15,081 nucleotides of DNA. Source: Candidatus Desantisiibacteriota bacterium (GTDB lineage Bacteria > JACRDZ01). Made by a program: the position numbers and the translations under genes. The notes below the pieces were generated by a model. That model saw only the letters and a program-made list of their open reading frames with translations. It was not told where the DNA came from and did not search any database. The first letter of the stretch is position 1, and each line of letters starts with the position of its first letter. Where the stretch lies: the NCBI GenBank assembly GCA_016209155.1, contig JACQWU010000297.1, forward strand, positions 1 to 15,081, read 5' to 3'. Shown in pieces: positions 3,217 through 15,009 of this stretch.

Positions 3217-4488
3217 TTAGATATAATCGCCCTGAACCCTTTTGATATCAGCGCCAAGTTTTACTAATTTATCTTCAATCTTTTCATATCCCCTATCAAG
3301 ATGATATATTCTATGTATATGTGTTTCTCCATGGGCTAAGAGTCCGGCAATTATAAGAGCGGCGCTTGCCCGCAGATCGCTTGCCATAACATGTGCACCT
3401 GTAAGATAAGGAGCTCCGTTTATTATAGCGCTTTCACCCTCTATTTGAATTTTTGCTCCCATCCGGTTAAGTTCTGCTACATGGATGAAGCGATTTTCAA
3501 AAACTGTTTCAGTAATAACACTTTGTCCCCGGGCGATACAAAGAAGAGCCATAAACTGAGCCTGTATATCAGTTGGAAAACCCGGATATGGCATTGTTCT
3601 TATATTTACCGGTTTTAATTCATGAATTCTTCTGACACGTATATCATCATTCTCAATCTCAATTTTTCCTCCGGCTTCTTCGACTTTAGCGATTACTGTT
3701 TTTAAATGATCATAACGTGAGTTTTTAATTAATATATTTCCACCGGTGGCAAGTGCAGCAACCATAAAAGTGCCTGTTTCAATTCTATCCGGGATGATTT
3801 TGTAATCTGCTCCGTGCAGTCCTTTTTCAAATTGTCCATCAATAATAATATTGTTAGTTCCCGCACCTTTTATTTTTGCCCCCATAGATATTAGAAAATC
3901 CGCAAGATCAACTATTTCAGGTTCACACGCGGCATTCTCAATTATAGTCTCTCCTTTGGCAAGTGCAGCTGCTATCATAATATTTTCTGTAGCTCCCACA
4001 CTTGGAAAATCCAGGAATATTTTACCGCCGCGCAAAGGTCCTGAACATGAAGCTTCAATGTATCCATATCCAATTTCTATTTTAGCTCCCAGAGCCTCAA
4101 AACCTTTAAGATGAATATTTACAGGACGGACTCCTATGGCGCATCCTCCCGGCATGGATACCTTTGCTTTGCCAAAACGCGCAAGAAGCGGTCCCAATAC
4201 CAGAAAAGAAGCCCGCATTGTTTTAACAAGTTCATAAGGCGCTTCAAAAGAGGTGATATCCGATGCGTCAATATTTATTGTATCTTCCGTCCTGCTAATT
4301 TTCGCACCCAGAGTGCTTATGACCTGTCCCATTGTGGAGACATCCCTTATAGCGGGTACATTTTTTATATTGCATTTATCTTTTGTAAGTATTACCGCTG
4401 CCATGATAGGCAGAACCGCATTTTTAGAGCCGCTGATTGTGACTGTTCCTTCCAATTTTTTACCGCCGGTAATTAATATTTTATCCAT
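3217..4488 (-). CDS. murA: UDP-N-acetylglucosamine 1-carboxyvinyltransferase
   Basis: MurA transfers enolpyruvate from PEP to UDP-GlcNAc, the first committed step of peptidoglycan synthesis, in the cytoplasm. The 423-residue protein is full length. It has the N-terminal GSKNAVLP motif with K22 and the active-site loop PGGCAIGVRPV with the catalytic cysteine C116, so it should be of the fosfomycin-sensitive type. It also has the FPTDIQAQ segment and the C-terminal DLRASAALIIAGLLA and YHLDRGYEKIEDKL motifs. Residues after the loop read NIH where many relatives have DLH. It is the first gene of the minus-strand operon; the ATG at 4488 is about 20 nt from the predicted transcription start. The ribosome-binding site is weak (AAAGAG then A-rich). 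Confidence 0.97.
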   Translation of the reverse strand: MDKILITGGKKLEGTVTISGSKNAVLPIMAAVILTKDKCNIKNVPAIRDVSTMGQVISTLGAKISRTEDTINIDASDITSFEAPYELVKTMRASFLVLGPLLARFGKAKVSMPGGCAIGVRPVNIHLKGFEALGAKIEIGYGYIEASCSGPLRGGKIFLDFPSVGATENIMIAAALAKGETIIENAACEPEIVDLADFLISMGAKIKGAGTNNIIIDGQFEKGLHGADYKIIPDRIETGTFMVAALATGGNILIKNSRYDHLKTVIAKVEEAGGKIEIENDDIRVRRIHELKPVNIRTMPYPGFPTDIQAQFMALLCIARGQSVITETVFENRFIHVAELNRMGAKIQIEGESAIINGAPYLTGAHVMASDLRASAALIIAGLLAHGETHIHRIYHLDRGYEKIEDKLVKLGADIKRVQGDYI

Positions 4489-4515
4489 TTTTTTCTCTTT
4501 AATGTTTAAAAAATA

Positions 4516-4544
4516 ATCATATCAAATTTAGCAATAAATGTCAT
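4516..4544 (-). promoter_or_regulatory. Predicted sigma70-type promoter of the murA-mreCD operon
   Basis: On the minus strand ATGACA (4544-4539) is followed by exactly 17 bases and then TATGAT (4521-4516), each one base from consensus. Transcription would start near 4509, giving a short leader of about 20 nt before the murA ATG. Predicted by eye from sequence only. Confidence 0.6.
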
Positions 4545-4570
4545 GTTATTTTTTTAATTGTGATCATCCA

Positions 4571-4599
4571 TTGACTTTATTCGCACATAGTGATATATT
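4571..4599 (+). promoter_or_regulatory. Predicted sigma70-type promoter of the AAA+ ATPase gene
   Basis: TTGACT (4571-4576), 17 bases, then TATATT (4594-4599). The expected start near 4606 would place all three copies of the GCGGATTA word and the long hairpin inside the transcript leader. It is back to back with the murA promoter, with about 26 bp between the -35 boxes. Confidence 0.6.
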
Positions 4600-4607
4600 T
4601 TAGATGA

Positions 4608-4676
4608 TTGCGGATTAGTGTGAATTATATTGCATAATCCGCAAAGAATAAAATAAATTTATTCTTTGCGGATTAT
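4608..4676 (+). promoter_or_regulatory. ATPase leader: perfect 19-bp hairpin plus a competing arm
   Basis: Arm B (4634-4652) and arm C (4658-4676) are perfect 19-base reverse complements around a 5-base loop. A third arm A, TTGCGGATTA (4608-4617), repeats the core of C (4666-4675), so it can pair instead with the start of B (4635-4644) over 10 bp. A:B and B:C are mutually exclusive. The ribosome-binding site GGAG (4680-4683) begins four bases after arm C, and the ATG is at 4689. Possible roles are an RNA switch, with the B:C stem hindering ribosome access, or three operator half-sites for a DNA-binding protein. A short TTATTTT after C is too weak to call a terminator. Confidence 0.75.
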
Positions 4677-4688
4677 TTTGGAGATTAT

Positions 4689-6104
4689 ATGTTTGTTGGA
4701 CGAGAACAGGAATTAAAAAAATTAGAGAATGCCTATAAATCTTCAAAAGGTGAACTCTTTGTAATATATGGCCGGAGACGTATAGGTAAAAGTATGCTTG
4801 TAAGCCATTTTGGCAAAGACAAGCATGACTTTATTAAATTTGAAGCCCTGGAAAATGAAAACACGGCTGCCCAGATACGCCACTTTTCTAAAACTCTTGC
4901 AAAATATACAAAAGACCCGCTACTTGATAGTATTAATTTTAATAAATGGGACAATGTATTTACATTTATTACCGAACGGCTTATTTTGCATAGAAAAAGC
5001 GATCATAAACTTACTCTGTTTTTTGATGAAGTGCAGTGGATGGCTTCCGGCAGGAGTGAATTGATAAGCATCATCAAATACTACTGGGATAATCATTGGA
5101 AAGACAATAATGTTATGCTTATTCTATGTGGTTCAATTGCTTCATTCATGGTGCGTAAAATTATAAAATCAAAAGCTTTGTATGGCAGGATAACCGGCGA
5201 AATTCTACTTAAAGGTTTATTGCCAAATGAAGCGGCGCTTATTTTACGCGATAAACGTTCACCTGCGGAAATATTAAAATATATGTTGATATTCGGGGGA
5301 GTGCCAAAATATTTGGAAATGATTAATCGTTCGATTTCTTTTAATCTTAATATAAATGAATTGTGCTTTTCAAAAGATAGCATATTGGCTAAGGAGATGA
5401 ACAAAATATTTTATAGCCAGTTTAGAGAGCCGGCGCTCTATAAACGTATTGCAATGCTTCTTAATGAAAATAATCGATCTTTTGGAGAAATTGGGAAAGT
5501 ATTAAAAGTTCATTCAGGCGGCGGATTGAAATCATACCTTCAAAATCTGGAAGATGCTGAAATAATAAAATCATACGTTCCATTTGACAGGGATGATTCA
5601 ACAAAATTCAGAAAATATACACTAAGTGATGAATATATGATTTTTTATTTCAAGTATGTCGCACCAAATTTGCGTATAATAAATGAGAGTACCTCACATC
5701 AGATCTTTGAACGATTGGTTAAAAACAGTTTTGATTTATGGTTAGGCTTTGCTTTTGAACGTTTTTGTATAAAACACGCGGGCTACATAGCGGAAAAACT
5801 CGGTTTTGGCAATGAAATGCTTAATGCGGCGCCATACTTTGGCAGAGAAGATAATAAATTTCAAATAGATCTACTATTCAGAAGGTCGGACAATATAATC
5901 ACATTATGTGAAGTCAAACATTATAACAGGGAAATAGAAACATCAATTATTCCTGAAGTTGAACGGAAATGTAAGCTAATTAAAATACCAAGGAATTATA
6001 CTCTCGAAAAAGCTATTATCAGTTTATATGGCCCTGATAAATCCTTATTGGAAAGCGGCTATTTCAATTATTCCCTTACTTTAAATGACATATTGCGGAA
6101 ATAA
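4689..6104 (+). CDS. AAA+ ATPase with DUF234-like PD-(D/E)xK C-terminal domain
   Basis: This protein belongs to the 'archaeal ATPase' type of P-loop NTPase common in archaea and AT-rich bacteria; its cellular function is unknown. The opening FVGREQELKKLE is typical. Walker A is GRRRIGKS (28-35) and Walker B is LTLFFDEVQW (108-117, D113 and E114). The sensor-like strand LILCGS is at 145-150. A winged-helix-like region spans about 250-315. The C-terminal domain has E357 (FAFERF) and then QIDLLF with D394 and CEVK with E408 and K410, the spacing of a PD-(D/E)xK nuclease core. It stands alone between murA and the next operon, with its own promoter and a structured leader. The ATG has GGAG at a 5-base spacing. 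The winged-helix and nuclease parts suggest it binds DNA, but whether it cuts is not known. Confidence 0.88.
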   Translation: MFVGREQELKKLENAYKSSKGELFVIYGRRRIGKSMLVSHFGKDKHDFIKFEALENENTAAQIRHFSKTLAKYTKDPLLDSINFNKWDNVFTFITERLILHRKSDHKLTLFFDEVQWMASGRSELISIIKYYWDNHWKDNNVMLILCGSIASFMVRKIIKSKALYGRITGEILLKGLLPNEAALILRDKRSPAEILKYMLIFGGVPKYLEMINRSISFNLNINELCFSKDSILAKEMNKIFYSQFREPALYKRIAMLLNENNRSFGEIGKVLKVHSGGGLKSYLQNLEDAEIIKSYVPFDRDDSTKFRKYTLSDEYMIFYFKYVAPNLRIINESTSHQIFERLVKNSFDLWLGFAFERFCIKHAGYIAEKLGFGNEMLNAAPYFGREDNKFQIDLLFRRSDNIITLCEVKHYNREIETSIIPEVERKCKLIKIPRNYTLEKAIISLYGPDKSLLESGYFNYSLTLNDILRK

Positions 6105-6168
6105 TCGCTTTTTATATTTAAATCAATGTCCTGATTCAATCATTAAAAGCTAAAATGGGAAACAATTC

Positions 6169-6198
6169 TTGACTATACTGATAAAAGCGCTGTATATT
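6169..6198 (+). promoter_or_regulatory. Predicted promoter of the glycan-like operon
   Basis: TTGACT (6169-6174), 18 bases, TATATT (6193-6198), with TG directly before the -10. The leader would be about 70 nt. A second TATAAT at 6232-6237 has no matching -35 box and is a weaker alternative. The rest of 6105-6277 shows no gene. Confidence 0.55.
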
Positions 6199-6277
6199 GC
6201 TAAAACAAAAGGTAGAAATAGTGTAATTGCATATAATGAATGACCAGTCTGAGAGCATAGAGGGTTAATAATTTAAT

Positions 6278-7501
6278 ATGTCGAGTAAAAATAAATATTC
6301 TTATAATATTTTTAATGCTTTAAAAAACAAAATTACTAAAAGTGCCGGTAAAATAATCATTTCCAGAAAATTAGAGCAATGGCTTAAGAATAATAGAACC
6401 GGTTTTTTTGAAAATTTTAAAATACATGAAATAAGAAAAAAAACATTAAAATATATAGAACATCAGCGGCTTAAAGAAAGCCCGTATGGCCAATTCAGAT
6501 ATTCTGAAAGCCAAACTAAACCGGTACTTTATGCCTCTTTATATGCCGCACTTATCCGGTCTCTTTACCGTGATCTCGATAATCTAAGTGATATTCAAAA
6601 AAAAGAATGGATAAATTATATCCAATCATTTCAGTCAGAAGATGATGGATTATTTAAGGATAATATTATTAATAATGAATTGGCTGCTGATTCTGACTGG
6701 TGGGGATGGAGGCATTTGACTCTTCATGCTCTTATGGCTTTAACGGCTCTTGGTGCAGCTGCAGAGAAAAAAATTAAAATAATAGAGCCATTCAAGGATA
6801 TAAAATATACACTTAATTGGCTCGAAGAAAGAGATTGGGTAATCAGCCCTGCGGATACAAGTAATGAAGTCCAAAATTATATTTCAATGCTTCAATATAT
6901 AAGGGATTTTCATCATGAGGATTGGGCAAATAAGTCTCTTGAAAAAATTTATACTTTTTTAAATAAAATACAGGATCCAAAAACCGGATTATGGGGAGTG
7001 CGATTTGATAATCCTCTTTATTTATCTCTTGGTGTGCAGACAGGCTACCACTTATGGCTTCTGTATTTTTATGATAGAAAACCTGTCCAATATATGGAAA
7101 GGATAATTGATAGTTGTCTTTTTACACAAAATAAATTTGGAGGGTTTGGCGTACAAAAAAATTCAAGCGCATGTGAGGATATTGATTCAATAGATCCGCT
7201 GGCAAGATTGTCTTGTTTTACTGATTATAGAAAAAAAGATATTCAATTGGGTTTACAAAAAGCTTTGCTGTGGATTTTTGCAAATATGAATGAAGACGGC
7301 GGTTTTGTTTTCAGAAGAATGGAACCGTTTACATACGGACATTATCTCATGTCCTCAGGTAAAGATGAGAGCGCAATGTTCCCTACATGGTTTAGAACAT
7401 TATCTCTTGCATATATAGGTAAATGCATGCCGGACTCTTTGCCGGGAAATTTTGATTGGCAATTCATTAATTGTCCCGGTCTTACATTCTGGCGGAAGTA
7501 A
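6278..7501 (+). CDS. Alpha/alpha-toroid protein (squalene cyclase / prenyltransferase-like repeats)
   Basis: No specific function can be named. The 407-residue protein has no clear signal peptide or long hydrophobic helix. It shows spaced repeats of the type found in the alpha6-alpha6 barrel of terpenoid cyclases and protein prenyltransferases: FQSEDDGLF (118-126), IQDPKTGLWG (231-240), TQNKFGGFG (283-291) and MNEDGGFVFR (337-346). Between the last two lies an acidic cluster CEDIDSIDP (299-307). In prenyltransferases such C/D residues and a later histidine (here GHY near 355) bind zinc; whether they do so here is inference. I see no canonical DxDD of squalene-hopene cyclases. It is the first gene of a run with a flippase (21 bp downstream) and a methyltransferase, which suggests a role in making or modifying a surface glycan or lipid. 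AGAGGG lies 13 bases before the ATG, a long spacing. Confidence 0.65.
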   Translation: MSSKNKYSYNIFNALKNKITKSAGKIIISRKLEQWLKNNRTGFFENFKIHEIRKKTLKYIEHQRLKESPYGQFRYSESQTKPVLYASLYAALIRSLYRDLDNLSDIQKKEWINYIQSFQSEDDGLFKDNIINNELAADSDWWGWRHLTLHALMALTALGAAAEKKIKIIEPFKDIKYTLNWLEERDWVISPADTSNEVQNYISMLQYIRDFHHEDWANKSLEKIYTFLNKIQDPKTGLWGVRFDNPLYLSLGVQTGYHLWLLYFYDRKPVQYMERIIDSCLFTQNKFGGFGVQKNSSACEDIDSIDPLARLSCFTDYRKKDIQLGLQKALLWIFANMNEDGGFVFRRMEPFTYGHYLMSSGKDESAMFPTWFRTLSLAYIGKCMPDSLPGNFDWQFINCPGLTFWRK

Positions 7502-8989: not shown

Positions 8990-9735
8990 ATAATATAAAA
9001 CCAAAAGAATATGATAATAATATAGATTATGCTTCTCCATACCATTGGAATATCGATCGCAGCGATTTAAATGGCGGAGTTGAATATTTTGGTTATATAG
9101 AATTGGTTGCGAATAAGTGTAAGGAGCTTGCATCCAAAAAAATTCTGGATGTCGGATGCGGGGATGGAAAAGCAACTGATGTAATTCAAAAAATCACAAA
9201 TGCCGATGTTACAGGTATTGATATTTCTGATAGAGCTATAGCGTTTGCACAACTTTTATCGGCTAAACCAGCTTTCAAAAATATCAACATTTTTGACATT
9301 GAAGACAGCTTTGATACTGTTATCATGATTGAGGTTCTTGAACATCTGGAAGCTGACATGGCTTTAAAATTCTTAAAAAAAATTTATCAAATTATGAAGG
9401 ACAGTGGTTCTTTAATTATTACAGTACCGAGTAATCTGTTCCCTATGCTTCATCCCGGGCATGTAAGGCATTTTAATAAAAATGATTTAGAAAAAGTTCT
9501 GAACAGCAGCGGTTTTATTATCAAGGAAGTGATTTTTCAACACAATATGTTATTTGACCGCAGGTTCGGAATATCTTTTCCTATCAGGACTATGTTGAGA
9601 TTATTAAGCAGCAGATTTTTTAAATCATCTGTACTTGACAGGGTATTATCAAAGATATACAATAAATATTTCAATATTACCATAGAAAAATATGCGGGGA
9701 GAATAATCGCTATAGCTAAAAAAGGAAACCTATGA
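8986..9735 (+). CDS. Class I SAM-dependent methyltransferase (UbiE/Coq3-like fold)
   Basis: The 249-residue protein has SAM motif I ILDVGCGDG (53-61), the acidic end of strand 2 in VTGIDIS (75-81, D79) and the post-strand-4 segment VIMIEVLEHL (112-121). The strand 5 region SGSLIITVPSN (140-150) follows. Such proteins in glycan clusters usually methylate a sugar or a lipid carrier end; the substrate here is unknown. It overlaps the flippase by 4 bp and has no ribosome-binding site of its own, so it is translationally coupled. Its last codons (IEKYAGRII.AKK) recur as a stray fragment at 13693-13749, evidence of a former second copy. Confidence 0.88.
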   Translation: MNNIKPKEYDNNIDYASPYHWNIDRSDLNGGVEYFGYIELVANKCKELASKKILDVGCGDGKATDVIQKITNADVTGIDISDRAIAFAQLLSAKPAFKNINIFDIEDSFDTVIMIEVLEHLEADMALKFLKKIYQIMKDSGSLIITVPSNLFPMLHPGHVRHFNKNDLEKVLNSSGFIIKEVIFQHNMLFDRRFGISFPIRTMLRLLSSRFFKSSVLDRVLSKIYNKYFNITIEKYAGRIIAIAKKGNL

Positions 9736-9762: not shown

Positions 9763-11730
9763 ATGTGTCAATTTAATTCATCAGACTGTAAGAAATTATC
9801 ACAATATTTTTATGTTTTTTTAATTTTCATATTTTTTTTACTGACAGGTTGCGGTCAGGATACAAATAAAAAAACCGATCAACTTAATTCTGACGATACT
9901 ACTAAAACAGACAATACCGCTAAAACTACAGATACTACTAAAATTACAGATACTACAAATATCATTGATAGCGAAGATACTACAACAATAAATTCTGCAG
10001 GGAATACTGTATCTGTCGCAGATATTGCAGCATTTGCGGATAATCTTTACAGCCTTAAAGAGGAATCATCTGAAGAATCTTCCTCAGTACTAAACGGGGA
10101 ACTGCAAAAATTTTTCAAATCATTAGGAATGGCTGTTCTTGCAAATAATAACGAGACGGACTTTACTGCCGAGATTAATGCCGGCAGACCGGCTCTTCTT
10201 GAAATGCAGATAGATGCTATTTTGCGCGGATTAAAAAATAATCAATTTTACAGTATTCGCTCATGGGTAGTTTCCATGACGGAATTCGATATCCAAACAA
10301 TTGATCCTTCGGAATCCTTCACCTACGAATTTCTCACGGAAAAAATGATGGAGATTGCAGTAACCGATAATTACACAGTAGATACTTATCTTCTCGGATT
10401 AGTTATACAGCTTGGACGTGCGCGTGCGCGAAAGGCCAGATTAACTGAAATTGATACTGTCTGGAGTGATGGGATGCTCGATCCCCTGCAGCTTGAACTT
10501 CTGAATTTGGCTGTTTTTTTTGGTTCCAGTCAGCGTTCAGGAGTTTCCGGCAGACTAGTGAAAGAACTGCCTTCATCTGTTATGTGGCCGATAGAACAAA
10601 TTTTAGATACCATAATGGAAGAATGGACGAAGATGCCGATCGACCCGAAAGGTGCTGCACAGGCTACGCTGGCCGCATCACTGCTTTTATATGGTCATAC
10701 GGTTACAGTTGAGGCAGATAATTCCCAATTACACCATAAACATCCCGAGAATCCGGATGAAGTGCCATGGAATACACAGGTACGCGCATATGTAGAGTTT
10801 ACCGATAAGTACGATGATTACGACCGGTTATGGCTTGAAAGGCTTTCAGGAGCAACCATCCCCCTGCCCGGTCCGCGTTCAGGGATTGAGGTAAAGTGGG
10901 AGGCATGGGATATTGAAAAACATGGATCTTTTGAATTCTCGCAGACAACTACCAATAACGAGGGAAAAGTAATAACCTACTGGAAAACAATAGATGAGAT
11001 AGTACCAAAACCTCTTCGGCGTATCGAAAAGTACACTACAGGACTCATTCTATGTAAAGCAACCGGTTTACTGCCGGCAAAATGGCGTAATCTTGAGTTG
11101 ATTACATCAAGTACAACCGGTGCAGTCGGACAAGTCCGCATGCAGATTGGATATTATGAAATGCCGAATTTAACCCTTGACTTCGAATCCAAGCAAATTA
11201 TAACAAGCAAAGAACCATTTGAAGGACGCGTTGTCGGCTTGCAGATCCCGATGGAACTTGTGCGTCCGAATCCGGACAACCTTGACGGAGCATATTATAA
11301 AGCAGAACGCGCATTGAGTTATCCTACCGCTACATTTCAGCCGGATATTGACAAATGCACATGGACATTCCGTGTTAATTCACCAGGATACATCAGGGCG
11401 GAACTGCCTGTTCCGGATGAATCGGCAACAGAACTGACCCTGTTCCTGCTTCCCGGAAACTACGCTGAAGGACCTAATGAATTTTTTTCAATTGTCTGTC
11501 CAAAAGTACCGCCGCAGAATGGCATCACTGTTTTCTGGTGGACAGGGTGGGGAACACACTATGAAAACCGAATGTCAGAATCAATCGGACCGCTTCAGGC
11601 GCCTCGCTATGTATTCACAGAACAAGTTGGGACAACTCCGCTTTTCTCACATGAGGGCTCCGGAGTAATAACTCAAAGTAAAGAGACATTCACTAACTAT
11701 ACAAAGATAACTATTACAGCAAATGACTGA
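9763..11730 (+). CDS. Large orphan lipoprotein, 655 residues
   Basis: I do not recognise the family. A signal peptide of the lipoprotein type is clear: hydrophobic residues 14-27, then the lipobox LTGC with the lipidated cysteine at C30. A flexible Thr/Asp linker (about 32-78) with repeated TTK and TDT units leads to an acidic Ser/Glu-rich patch (about 96-105). The rest alternates helical parts (to about residue 320) with strand-rich, Trp- and Tyr-rich C-terminal segments; this looks extracytoplasmic. G+C content of the distal two thirds is visibly higher than in the neighbours (one 60-base sample at 11221 is 58%, against 30% in a sample of the flippase). The start has a strong AGGGAGGA at proper spacing. 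It follows the methyltransferase by 27 bp and so probably shares its transcript. Confidence 0.85.
   Translation: MCQFNSSDCKKLSQYFYVFLIFIFFLLTGCGQDTNKKTDQLNSDDTTKTDNTAKTTDTTKITDTTNIIDSEDTTTINSAGNTVSVADIAAFADNLYSLKEESSEESSSVLNGELQKFFKSLGMAVLANNNETDFTAEINAGRPALLEMQIDAILRGLKNNQFYSIRSWVVSMTEFDIQTIDPSESFTYEFLTEKMMEIAVTDNYTVDTYLLGLVIQLGRARARKARLTEIDTVWSDGMLDPLQLELLNLAVFFGSSQRSGVSGRLVKELPSSVMWPIEQILDTIMEEWTKMPIDPKGAAQATLAASLLLYGHTVTVEADNSQLHHKHPENPDEVPWNTQVRAYVEFTDKYDDYDRLWLERLSGATIPLPGPRSGIEVKWEAWDIEKHGSFEFSQTTTNNEGKVITYWKTIDEIVPKPLRRIEKYTTGLILCKATGLLPAKWRNLELITSSTTGAVGQVRMQIGYYEMPNLTLDFESKQIITSKEPFEGRVVGLQIPMELVRPNPDNLDGAYYKAERALSYPTATFQPDIDKCTWTFRVNSPGYIRAELPVPDESATELTLFLLPGNYAEGPNEFFSIVCPKVPPQNGITVFWWTGWGTHYENRMSESIGPLQAPRYVFTEQVGTTPLFSHEGSGVITQSKETFTNYTKITITAND
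9886..9985 (+). repeat. Degenerate in-frame repeat encoding a Thr/Asp-rich linker
   Basis: Variants of ACAGATACTACTAAAA recur several times, coding TTKTD/TDTTK units just after the lipid anchor. The units keep the reading frame, so copy-number change would alter linker length without a frameshift. Confidence 0.6.
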
Positions 11731-11759
11731 ATTTTAAAAAATAGAAATGGTTCTTTTTT

Positions 11760-12623
11760 ATGACTTGGTTAATATTTGCATTTCTGACAGCTTTATTTGA
11801 ATCCCTTAAAGATGTTTCAAGCAAGATGAACTTGAGAAATATTGATGAGTATATTATTTCATGGTCACTGCGTTTTTTTGCATTACCTTTTTTAATCCCA
11901 CTTTTATTTTTTACTAAAATCCCATCTTTAGGAACCCAATTTTGGATTGCATTGCTTGTTGGAGGCTCTCTTAATGTATTTACAACAATTCTTTATATGA
12001 AAGCAATAAAGGCTTCAGATTTATCCATTACAGTTCCGATGGTTACTTTCACTCCATTATTTCTTTTATTAACCTCGCCTTTTATGGTTGGTGAATTTCC
12101 TGGTATTTATGGTATAATTGGAATTGTTTTGGTTGTTCTGGGTTCCTATGTATTAAATATTAAACAAAGGCATAAAGGATATTTTGCACCTTTTCGAGCG
12201 CTTCTTAAAGAAAAAGGGCCAAAACTAATGCTTCTCGTAGCTTTCATATGGAGTATAACATCTAATTTTGATAAAATTGGCGTAAAAAATTCTTCGTCAA
12301 TTTTTTGGGCTATTGTAATGAACATATTTCTGACAATAGCAATGTTTCCAATAATGCTATATAAATCGCAAGGAAGTATAAAACAAATTATAGTAAATTA
12401 TAAAGCTCTAATTCCAATAGGGTTATTTAGTGCTTTGGTATTAGTATCCCAAATGACTGCACTAAATTTAACTCTTGTTGCAAATGTTATTTCAATAAAG
12501 CGGACAAGTACAATATTGAGTGTATTCCTGGGTTATTTTATTTTCAAAGAGAAGGGTATGACTGAAAGATTACTTGGTGTTGTAATAATGGTTGCCGGAG
12601 TTTTGTTCATAACGTTATCTTGA
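11760..12623 (+). CDS. EamA/DMT-family membrane transporter
   Basis: The 287-residue protein consists almost entirely of hydrophobic helices, with the ten-TM, two-repeat layout of the drug/metabolite transporter superfamily. The second half carries the usual basic SIKRTSTILSVFLGYFIFKE segment (about 243-262), followed by a last helix with GVVIMVAGVLFI. The substrate cannot be told. It starts 29 bp after the lipoprotein gene without a visible ribosome-binding site, so expression may depend on the upstream genes. A second, internally deleted copy lies at 14523-14997. Both copies are followed by the same 54-bp hairpin element. Confidence 0.88.
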   Translation: MTWLIFAFLTALFESLKDVSSKMNLRNIDEYIISWSLRFFALPFLIPLLFFTKIPSLGTQFWIALLVGGSLNVFTTILYMKAIKASDLSITVPMVTFTPLFLLLTSPFMVGEFPGIYGIIGIVLVVLGSYVLNIKQRHKGYFAPFRALLKEKGPKLMLLVAFIWSITSNFDKIGVKNSSSIFWAIVMNIFLTIAMFPIMLYKSQGSIKQIIVNYKALIPIGLFSALVLVSQMTALNLTLVANVISIKRTSTILSVFLGYFIFKEKGMTERLLGVVIMVAGVLFITLS

Positions 12624-12635
12624 TTAGAATTTTTG

Positions 12636-13692: not shown

Positions 13693-13749
13693 ATCAATAT
13701 TGAAAAATATGCGGGAAGAATAATCGTTGGTGCTAAAAAAAAGGAATAG
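13693..13749 (+). pseudogene. Stray 3' end of a methyltransferase gene
   Basis: The frame reads INIEKYAGRIIVGAKKKE then TAG, closely matching the end of the methyltransferase at 8986-9735 (NITIEKYAGRIIAIAKKGNL). The DNA also matches over about 45 bases. A TAA stands immediately before it (13690) and the rest of the gene is missing. It is a remnant of a second copy or of a related gene that once lay here. Confidence 0.7.
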
Positions 13750-13837: not shown

Positions 13838-14041
13838 ATGTCTGATATTATTGATGTACATGATTTACCTGATAATGAAATTAGAGTAGTGGAACAGCTG
13901 GTTGAATTATTAAGAAAAAAAACAAAGCCGGCAAAATCGCATGTTGCTGCTTATCAAAAAGAAAAAAAAATTAAATTTGCCAGCTGGTCTTTAGGTGTTA
14001 AAGGAAAACTTACGAGGGAGGAAATCTATGATTATCTCTAA
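13838..14041 (+). CDS. Antitoxin of a type II toxin-antitoxin pair (VapB-like)
   Basis: A 67-residue protein that should bind and neutralise the PIN toxin encoded just downstream and repress the operon. I chose the ATG at 13838 (MSDIIDVHDLPDNE) because GGAAGGAGGGG stands directly upstream and the promoter lies at 13757-13786; the frame is open further upstream but would start inside that promoter. Residues 13-28 form a likely helix and the tail FASWSLGVKGKLTREEIYDY is typical of small antitoxins paired with PIN toxins, where it wraps the toxin. Its own DNA-binding fold is not recognisable to me. It overlaps the toxin start by 14 bp. Confidence 0.8.
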   Translation: MSDIIDVHDLPDNEIRVVEQLVELLRKKTKPAKSHVAAYQKEKKIKFASWSLGVKGKLTREEIYDYL

Positions 14042-14480
14042 TCCCGAAGATGTATTTTTTTTAGATACTAATATTTTAGTTTATGCAGCAGATACTTCTT
14101 CGCCTTTTCACTCGCCTTCCAAAAAATTAAGAGATAGAGGGATAAAAGGAAATTTGGCTATTTGTATTTCTCCACAAGTATTGTGTGAATTTTTTACAGT
14201 CGTTACTGATCCTAAAAAAGTAACTAATCCCAAAACATCGGAGGAAGCACTAAAGGAGATTACAAAGTATATAGAAACAGATAAATTTTTTAAAATATTT
14301 TTCACTAAAGAATCCCTTAAAAAAACCGTGGAACTTGTAGAAAAATACAAAATAAAAAAACAGGAAATTTTTGATATCCAAATTGTGGCTACAATGCTAT
14401 CAAATAACATTACAAAAATATATACCTATAATACAGAACATTTTTCCAAATTTAAAGAGATAGAAGTTCTTACTCTTTAG
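14028..14480 (+). CDS. PIN-domain toxin ribonuclease (VapC-like)
   Basis: A 150-residue PIN-domain protein, expected to be a metal-dependent endoribonuclease that cuts tRNA, rRNA or mRNA when free of antitoxin. The acidic site is visible: D13 in FLDTNILVYA (11-20), E54 in VLCEFF (51-56) and D116 in FDIQIVATM (115-123). The fourth position falls in TYNTEHF (133-139), where this family often has N or D. I chose the ATG at 14028, with AGGGAGGA 6 bases upstream inside the antitoxin gene. The in-frame upstream extension has no ribosome-binding site. The overlapping antitoxin-first order fits a vapBC operon. Confidence 0.88.
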   Translation: MIISNPEDVFFLDTNILVYAADTSSPFHSPSKKLRDRGIKGNLAICISPQVLCEFFTVVTDPKKVTNPKTSEEALKEITKYIETDKFFKIFFTKESLKKTVELVEKYKIKKQEIFDIQIVATMLSNNITKIYTYNTEHFSKFKEIEVLTL

Positions 14481-14522
14481 AAGCAAAGATTAAAATTTAA
14501 CAGAGAATTATTACAATAATCT

Positions 14523-14997
14523 ATGACCTGGTTAATATTTGCATTTCTGACAGCTTTATTCGAATCCCTTAAAGATGTTTCAAGCAAGATGAGCTTGAGA
14601 AATATTGATGAATATATTATTTCATGGTCACTGCGTTTTTTTGCATTACCTTTTTTAATTCCGCTTTTGTTTTTTATTAAAATCCCATCTTTAGGAACCC
14701 AATTTTGGAATAGTAATGTTTCCGATAATGCTGTATAAATCACAAAGAAGTATAAAAGATATCACTGTAAATTATAAAGCTTTAACTCCAATAGGACTTT
14801 TTAGTGCTTTGGGCTTAGTATTTCAAATGATTGCAATAAATTTAACTCTTGTAGCAAATGTTATTTCAATAAAGCGGACAAACACAATAATGAGTGTATT
14901 CCTGGGTTATTTTATTTTCAAAGAGAAGGGTATGACTGAAAGATTACCTGGTGTTGTAATAATGGTTGCCGGAGTTTTGTTCATAACGTTATCTTGA
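14523..14997 (+). pseudogene. Second EamA transporter copy, broken by a 389-bp internal deletion
   Basis: 14523-14709 matches 11760-11946 with 8 differences in 187 bases, and 14710-14997 matches 12336-12623 including the stop. The 389 bp in between (11947-12335 of the intact copy) are missing. As 389 is not a multiple of three, the reading frame is lost: the first part stops at 14738. The second part is open in another frame as the last 90 or so residues. Six of the 8 differences in the first part are synonymous, so the copy was under protein-level selection for some time before it broke. Similarity starts at the ATG and runs on beyond the stop through the 54-bp element. Confidence 0.9.
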
Positions 14998-15009
14998 TTA
15001 GAATTTTTG

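Follow-up and report, generated by a model that had tools for sequence, protein, structure and literature searches.

A gene-specific array of alternating half-sites over the promoter of a PDC-S27 ATPase-nuclease gene as a candidate self-operator

The window analyzed here, i.e., the whole stretch of 15,081 nucleotides from a Candidatus Desantisiibacteriota bacterium, contains a gene (4689-6104, plus strand) for a predicted ATPase-nuclease of 471 amino acids, preceded by a leader with three arms that can form two mutually exclusive hairpins. An earlier note offered two explanations of the leader: an attenuator-like or translation switch made of RNA, or a set of operator sites for the ATPase itself. 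The locus thus raises the question of whether the arms act as RNA or as double-stranded DNA and, if the latter, which protein reads them.

The window locus and its product

The word TTGCGGATTA occurs at 4608-4617 (arm A) and at 4666-4675 (within arm C), and its complement TAATCCGCAA at 4635-4644 (arm B), in agreement with the coordinates of the earlier note. Arms B and C form a perfect 19-bp inverted repeat (4634-4676; 4634-4652 against 4658-4676, with a loop of 5 nt), identified by stem search and RNA folding; it is the longest perfect stem of the window, the second longest being 11 bp. The assertion that such a palindrome is improbable by chance was borne out: the expected number of 19-bp stems in the window is about 9e-6, and the longest perfect stem in 30 window shuffles was 14 bp. 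Folded as RNA, arms A and B reach -15.4 kcal/mol, and the whole leader -27.7 in a structure that contains the B:C stem (z = -4.4).

A consensus scan predicted an extended -10 promoter, TTGACT-17-TATATT, in which a TG precedes the -10 box, at 4571-4599, plus strand; because it lies just upstream, the suggested start of the transcript just before arm A, at about 4606, is plausible as a prediction from promoter position. The ribosome-binding site GGAG, seen directly at 4680-4683 (plus strand), follows arm C, as had been proposed. One more half-site, missing from the earlier note, was found because the window was placed on the grid common to its homologues (see below). This is TTATTCGCA at 4577-4585 on the plus strand, a decayed copy with 7/9 positions correct, which lies between the -35 and -10 boxes, at a distance of exactly one period (58 bp) upstream of arm B. 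The complete array therefore comprises f1 (TTATTCGCA, assigned by the four-site model with period 58), r1 (arm A, TTGCGGATTA, 4608-4617, minus strand), f2 (arm B, TAATCCGCAAA, 4635-4645, plus strand) and r2 (arm C, TTTGCGGATTA, 4665-4675, minus strand), the last three being assigned by both sequence reading and the model. The arm distance of the B-C pair is 28 bp in the common frame of the homologues. The array scores 48 vs 34.5 in shuffles, and none of 60 shuffles was as good.

A search of the host genome (79% complete) found the paired word, or the array, only at the window site, and word density downstream of the gene was not above that inside the gene, with a single near-match, TTGCGGAA at 6093-6100, at the end of the gene. 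A transposon with terminal inverted repeats was considered and rejected, as the word is not enriched downstream of the gene.

The product was assigned by Pfam, PADLOC, conserved residues and AlphaFold to a family of proteins with ATPase_2, winged-helix and DUF234 (PD-(D/E)XK) domains. PF01637 (ATPase_2) and PF03008 (DUF234) were found above cut-off; the Pfam matches comprise only ATPase_2, AAA_16, AAA_14 and DUF234, and a WYL domain is not among them. The protein has a full-length PADLOC match to the single-gene candidate PDC-S27 (PDLC04984, E 1.4e-95, residues 2-468). It comprises AAA+, winged-helix and PD-(D/E)XK nuclease domains; its AlphaFold model is of high confidence (pLDDT 95.6, pTM 0.92), and the winged-helix region that the earlier note had ascribed to the ATPase is seen behind the AAA+ domain of the predicted fold. 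Among 93 aligned proteins no variation is seen at E114, D394 and K410, and K34, D113 and E408 are conserved at 90% or more; the Walker A/B and PD-(D/E)XK residues of the window protein are intact. The predicted fold resembles the archaeal ATPases PABY2304 (Z 22.2) and SSO1545 (Z 20.6; rmsd ~3 for both), NLR-type immune ATPases (Z ~17, rmsd 3.9), the DNA-bound Orc1/Cdc6 heterodimer 2qby (Z 15.7, rmsd 6.7, 301 aligned residues) and another Orc1/Cdc6 structure, 2v1u (Z 14.4, rmsd 7.5).

The gene is single-copy in its genome, was not found in three other genomes of the same phylum, and has relatives at 57-60% identity in Desulfobacterales, Pontiellaceae and Aminicenantes. As it is missing from the three phylum relatives and its close relatives belong to unrelated phyla, horizontal transfer of the gene is likely. 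A search of viral contigs by the peptide patterns of the protein yielded no relative, and a search with an 18-mer gave one stray match. Comparison of 73 loci revealed no neighbor gene shared beyond closely related loci, i.e., a single-gene setting.

Elsewhere in the window, an EamA-like transporter gene (11760-12623, in the region 11759-12634) has a broken second copy at 14522-15008, the pieces being 91-96% identical, and the end of a methyltransferase gene is repeated (9682-9723 and 13699-13740); the two repeats suggest a segmental duplication. A gene for a PIN-domain toxin-like protein (13995-14480) with a small upstream partner lies between the EamA copies. A predicted lipoprotein of 655 amino acids with a TDTTK-rich start, for which Pfam gave no match, is encoded at 9763-11730.

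Upstream regions of homologous genes

The earlier note had proposed searching for the word upstream of homologous ATPase genes, and the outcome was strongly positive. Of the close relatives whose upstream region is complete, almost all have this word or a near variant of it (ATCCGCAAA, ATCGGCAAA, ATGCGCAAA or TATCCGCAAG), mostly as two inverted pairs. At 55-60% protein identity both the word and its layout (period 57-58, with the arms 28 bp apart) recur across phyla, and homologues from several other phyla at 40-60% identity likewise have an f-r-f-r array, of almost identical geometry. An arm distance of 28 bp with the pairs 57-58 bp apart was found at loci L071, L072, L074, L076, L084 and L215; only one clear pair is present at L075, the word occurs without the full grid at L239, and the grid occurs with a different word at L236 (51% identity). 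At L163 and L242 the array reaches into the start codon with its last half-site. The upstream region of L086, from Simkaniaceae, contains a longer array, with extra TTTACCGGT-like copies over ~350 nt upstream of the gene.

For a wider survey 153 members of the family were gathered and reduced to 87 representatives less than 60% identical to one another, which are related to each other and do not count as 87 independent events. Their upstream regions were fitted with a four-site model (f, r, f, r; period and arm distance free), and dinucleotide shuffles given the same maximization as the real regions served as controls. Fifty of the 87 representatives beat all 60 shuffles, with ~1.4 expected, and the period was 50-59 bp in 41 of these 50 arrays vs ~21% in shuffles. 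When no better score in 20 shuffles was taken as the threshold, arrays were found in 45/87 ATPase upstream regions vs 3/53 upstream regions of neighboring genes from the same loci. Forty-four of the 87 fall outside the model with a period of 50-62; a second layout, in which 9-mer direct repeats follow each other at exactly 15 bp, occurs in 20 of these (1.6 expected), and others have no clear array. The four-site model does not describe the haloarchaeal members L247-L249, of which L247 has the 15-bp direct repeats. A four-site array (period 56, arm distance 28) was found in the member from Wolbachia phage WO (L251), a phage-borne ATPase-DUF234 gene located among head genes and preceded by two near-identical 56-bp units, TAACCGCGG...CCGCGGTAA.

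The sister family PDC-S01 has arrays in ~5/24 cases and is therefore not clean as a negative control; the array is not wholly exclusive to PDC-S27, and the rule may be wider than this family. Four-site arrays with a period of 51 were seen in the PDC-S01 loci L277, L279 and L256 (TCCTAAAAC, TTTCAAAAA and TGACAAAAA), whereas L259-L266 have one TTTCCCAAA/TTTGGGAAA pair that lies over the promoter.

A probable DNA site rather than an RNA structure

According to the first explanation of the leader, A:B and B:C would form alternately, and the choice would control transcription or translation of the ATPase gene. The arms of the window do fold well as RNA, and arm A would be downstream of the predicted start. 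However, a scan of 4400-6400 found no terminator-like site, an Rfam search of the window gave no match at the gathering threshold, and GGAG at 4680-4683 lies outside the B:C stem, hence it is not sequestered.

RNA pairing and word conservation, the two patterns that the earlier note had set against each other, were compared in 43 arrays for all six pairings of half-sites. Inside the word all six agree at ~0.8-0.95 per position, whereas directly outside it agreement drops sharply to ~0.25-0.6, against a background of 0.28; as the 9-mer was picked as the best match, the flanks are the sole unbiased part of this comparison, and they show no extended stem, the window and L077 excepted, where the stems (19 and 21 bp, respectively) are longer than a half-site. 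Moreover, the inverted pairs capable of forming a hairpin (f2:r2) do not exceed the direct pairs (f1:f2) in similarity. The likeness is confined to the word, which speaks against RNA, because a conserved hairpin would favor the inverted pairs.

The position of the sites points in the same direction. They overlap the predicted promoter of their own gene in the window and in homologues. Several homologues have the leading arm of a pair inside the spacer of the -35 and -10 boxes, where it would not be transcribed; f2 of L072, for example, is situated between consensus -35 and -10 boxes, and L071 and L074 are similar. A strict sigma-70 scan placed promoters in some members only, possibly because promoter words differ in several clades, and a tally of positions over the family was used instead. 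Exact TATATT hexamers cluster at the start of r2 (18 observed vs 0.6 expected), and the ribosome-binding sites come after r2, so that f2 should be upstream of the transcription start there. The attenuator or translation-switch reading is therefore not supported, and we consider an RNA switch highly improbable; in the window only, the unusually long stem may have an added effect as RNA.

The probable reader of the array and what it may mean

The word changes with the protein: it is common to 98% of pairs with more than 80% protein identity and to 3% of pairs at 40-50%. Paralogues within one genome mostly differ in the word (four of four in G462 and four of four in G471), while three near-identical copies in G354 have one shared word, as expected. 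Operators over promoters are common, which counts in favor of a host regulator whose sites happen to control these genes. Against it, paralogues in the same genome mostly have different words, the word accompanies the ATPase across phyla, and the paired word is found nowhere else in the host genome as far as it is complete (79%). The host-regulator reading is thus already disfavored, and of all the explanations discussed here we give it the least credence. Since the word tracks the protein, paralogues differ, no neighbor gene is shared and the host genome, as far as it is complete, contains the paired word a single time, the product of the adjacent gene is by far the likeliest reader of the array, as judged from comparison of sequences. 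The second explanation of the earlier note, operator sites for the ATPase itself, is favored by the same data, namely the presence of the word in homologues and its covariation with the protein. The near-identical arrangement with a gene-specific word before many genes of this family of suspected phage-defense ATPase-nucleases, in many phyla, suggests that each protein would read its own DNA label.

Partial correlations of the word with whole domains are weak (AAA 0.17, middle 0.09, nuclease -0.03). A sliding scan against residues, in which phylogeny was ignored, gave a peak at 161-179, in the AAA+ domain, and lesser peaks near 212, 248 and 311, the winged-helix parts being weakly linked; these residue links are suggestive only.

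Probably an oligomer of the ATPase occupies the adjacent array and thereby represses the gene that encodes it, the arms serving as operator half-sites. Here we infer the ATPase as the binder, oligomeric binding via the winged helix and an AAA+ loop, and repression as the effect. The half-sites f1-r1-f2-r2 would form a double-stranded DNA array over the promoter of the gene, to which the ATPase encoded next to it would bind sequence-specifically; an oligomer would bridge the alternating half-sites, contacting DNA through the winged helix plus the AAA+ loop, and the bound ATPase would repress its own transcription. Such autorepression would keep a potentially dangerous ATPase-nuclease scarce. 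Against the self-operator reading, f1 of the window is degraded (7/9), the stem exceeds the needs of a half-site, half of the representatives (44/87) fall outside the four-site model with a period of 50-62, and some members of PDC-S01 have arrays as well.

Two other roles of the same protein have to be weighed. First, the nuclease could be held inactive on the array until a phage attack, or the array being lost, unleashed DNA cutting, with repression as a side effect. The (near-)invariant D394, E408, K410 and Walker residues, the status of PDC-S27 as a defense candidate, the arrays private to each gene and traveling with it, and a predicted fold also similar to NLR-type immune ATPases (Z ~17) agree with this role. 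However, autoregulation fully accounts for the promoter overlap, and inhibition on the array is a conjecture, so we regard this role as unlikely. The same low likelihood applies to its broader form, in which each PDC-S27 protein would be an immune machine parked on a private array that is both operator and off-switch, disturbance would free the nuclease, and the whole would be an addiction or self-label unit with a word diversifying across phyla. Second, the protein could unwind or mark the array DNA for replication or gene movement, as an initiator at an origin-like unit. Its predicted Orc1/Cdc6-like fold, the similarity of the alternating half-sites and 15-bp repeats to origin boxes and iterons, and the distribution of the gene, with the closest relatives in unrelated phyla and none found in three phylum relatives, fit such a role, while the far end of the gene has no copies of the word, neighbors are not shared and the setting is that of a chromosomal single gene; we find an initiator very improbable.

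Several known systems resemble the proposed autorepressing ATPase. In archaea, inverted boxes adjoin the Orc1/Cdc6 initiator gene; AAA+ and winged-helix domains are common to both systems, and the predicted fold matches DNA-bound 2qby, whereas the family described here has a gene-private word, overlap with the promoter and an added nuclease domain. Plasmid Rep proteins have direct and inverted repeats near their own gene and autoregulate; their iterons resemble the 15-bp repeat class of the family, although Rep is a different protein family. By analogy, the nearest known logic is that of BrxR, a winged-helix regulator on inverted repeats of ~10-11 bp over a defense promoter (PMC9122601). In BrxR and CapW, likewise, a winged-helix protein and inverted repeats over the promoter hold down defense genes, but BrxR is a separate WYL-domain regulator with repeats 5 bp apart, whereas in the window no protein but the ATPase-nuclease is a candidate for reading the sites, and there are four half-sites ~26-29 bp apart.

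PDC-S27, an ATPase fused to a PD-(D/E)XK domain, is reported to have 4,562 bacterial and 3,503 archaeal copies, about 8,000 (PMC12988326), and the window protein is a full-length member of the same make-up. No published description of upstream arrays for the family was found in a search with most subscription papers and all bioRxiv preprints outside its coverage; the accessible parts of the PDC-S27 literature do not describe a cis array and report no anti-phage activity, the family being known there as a candidate only. It is among the commonest defense candidates of bacteria and archaea, and no paper on its mechanism was found in the same accessible literature. The private co-evolving array indicates that PDC-S27 proteins are probably sequence-specific DNA binders; it gives the likely target sequence of each protein from the genome alone and makes an unexplained family testable by a single gel-shift. 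In addition, the family would offer a large number of natural examples of how winged-helix AAA+ proteins switch to a new DNA word.
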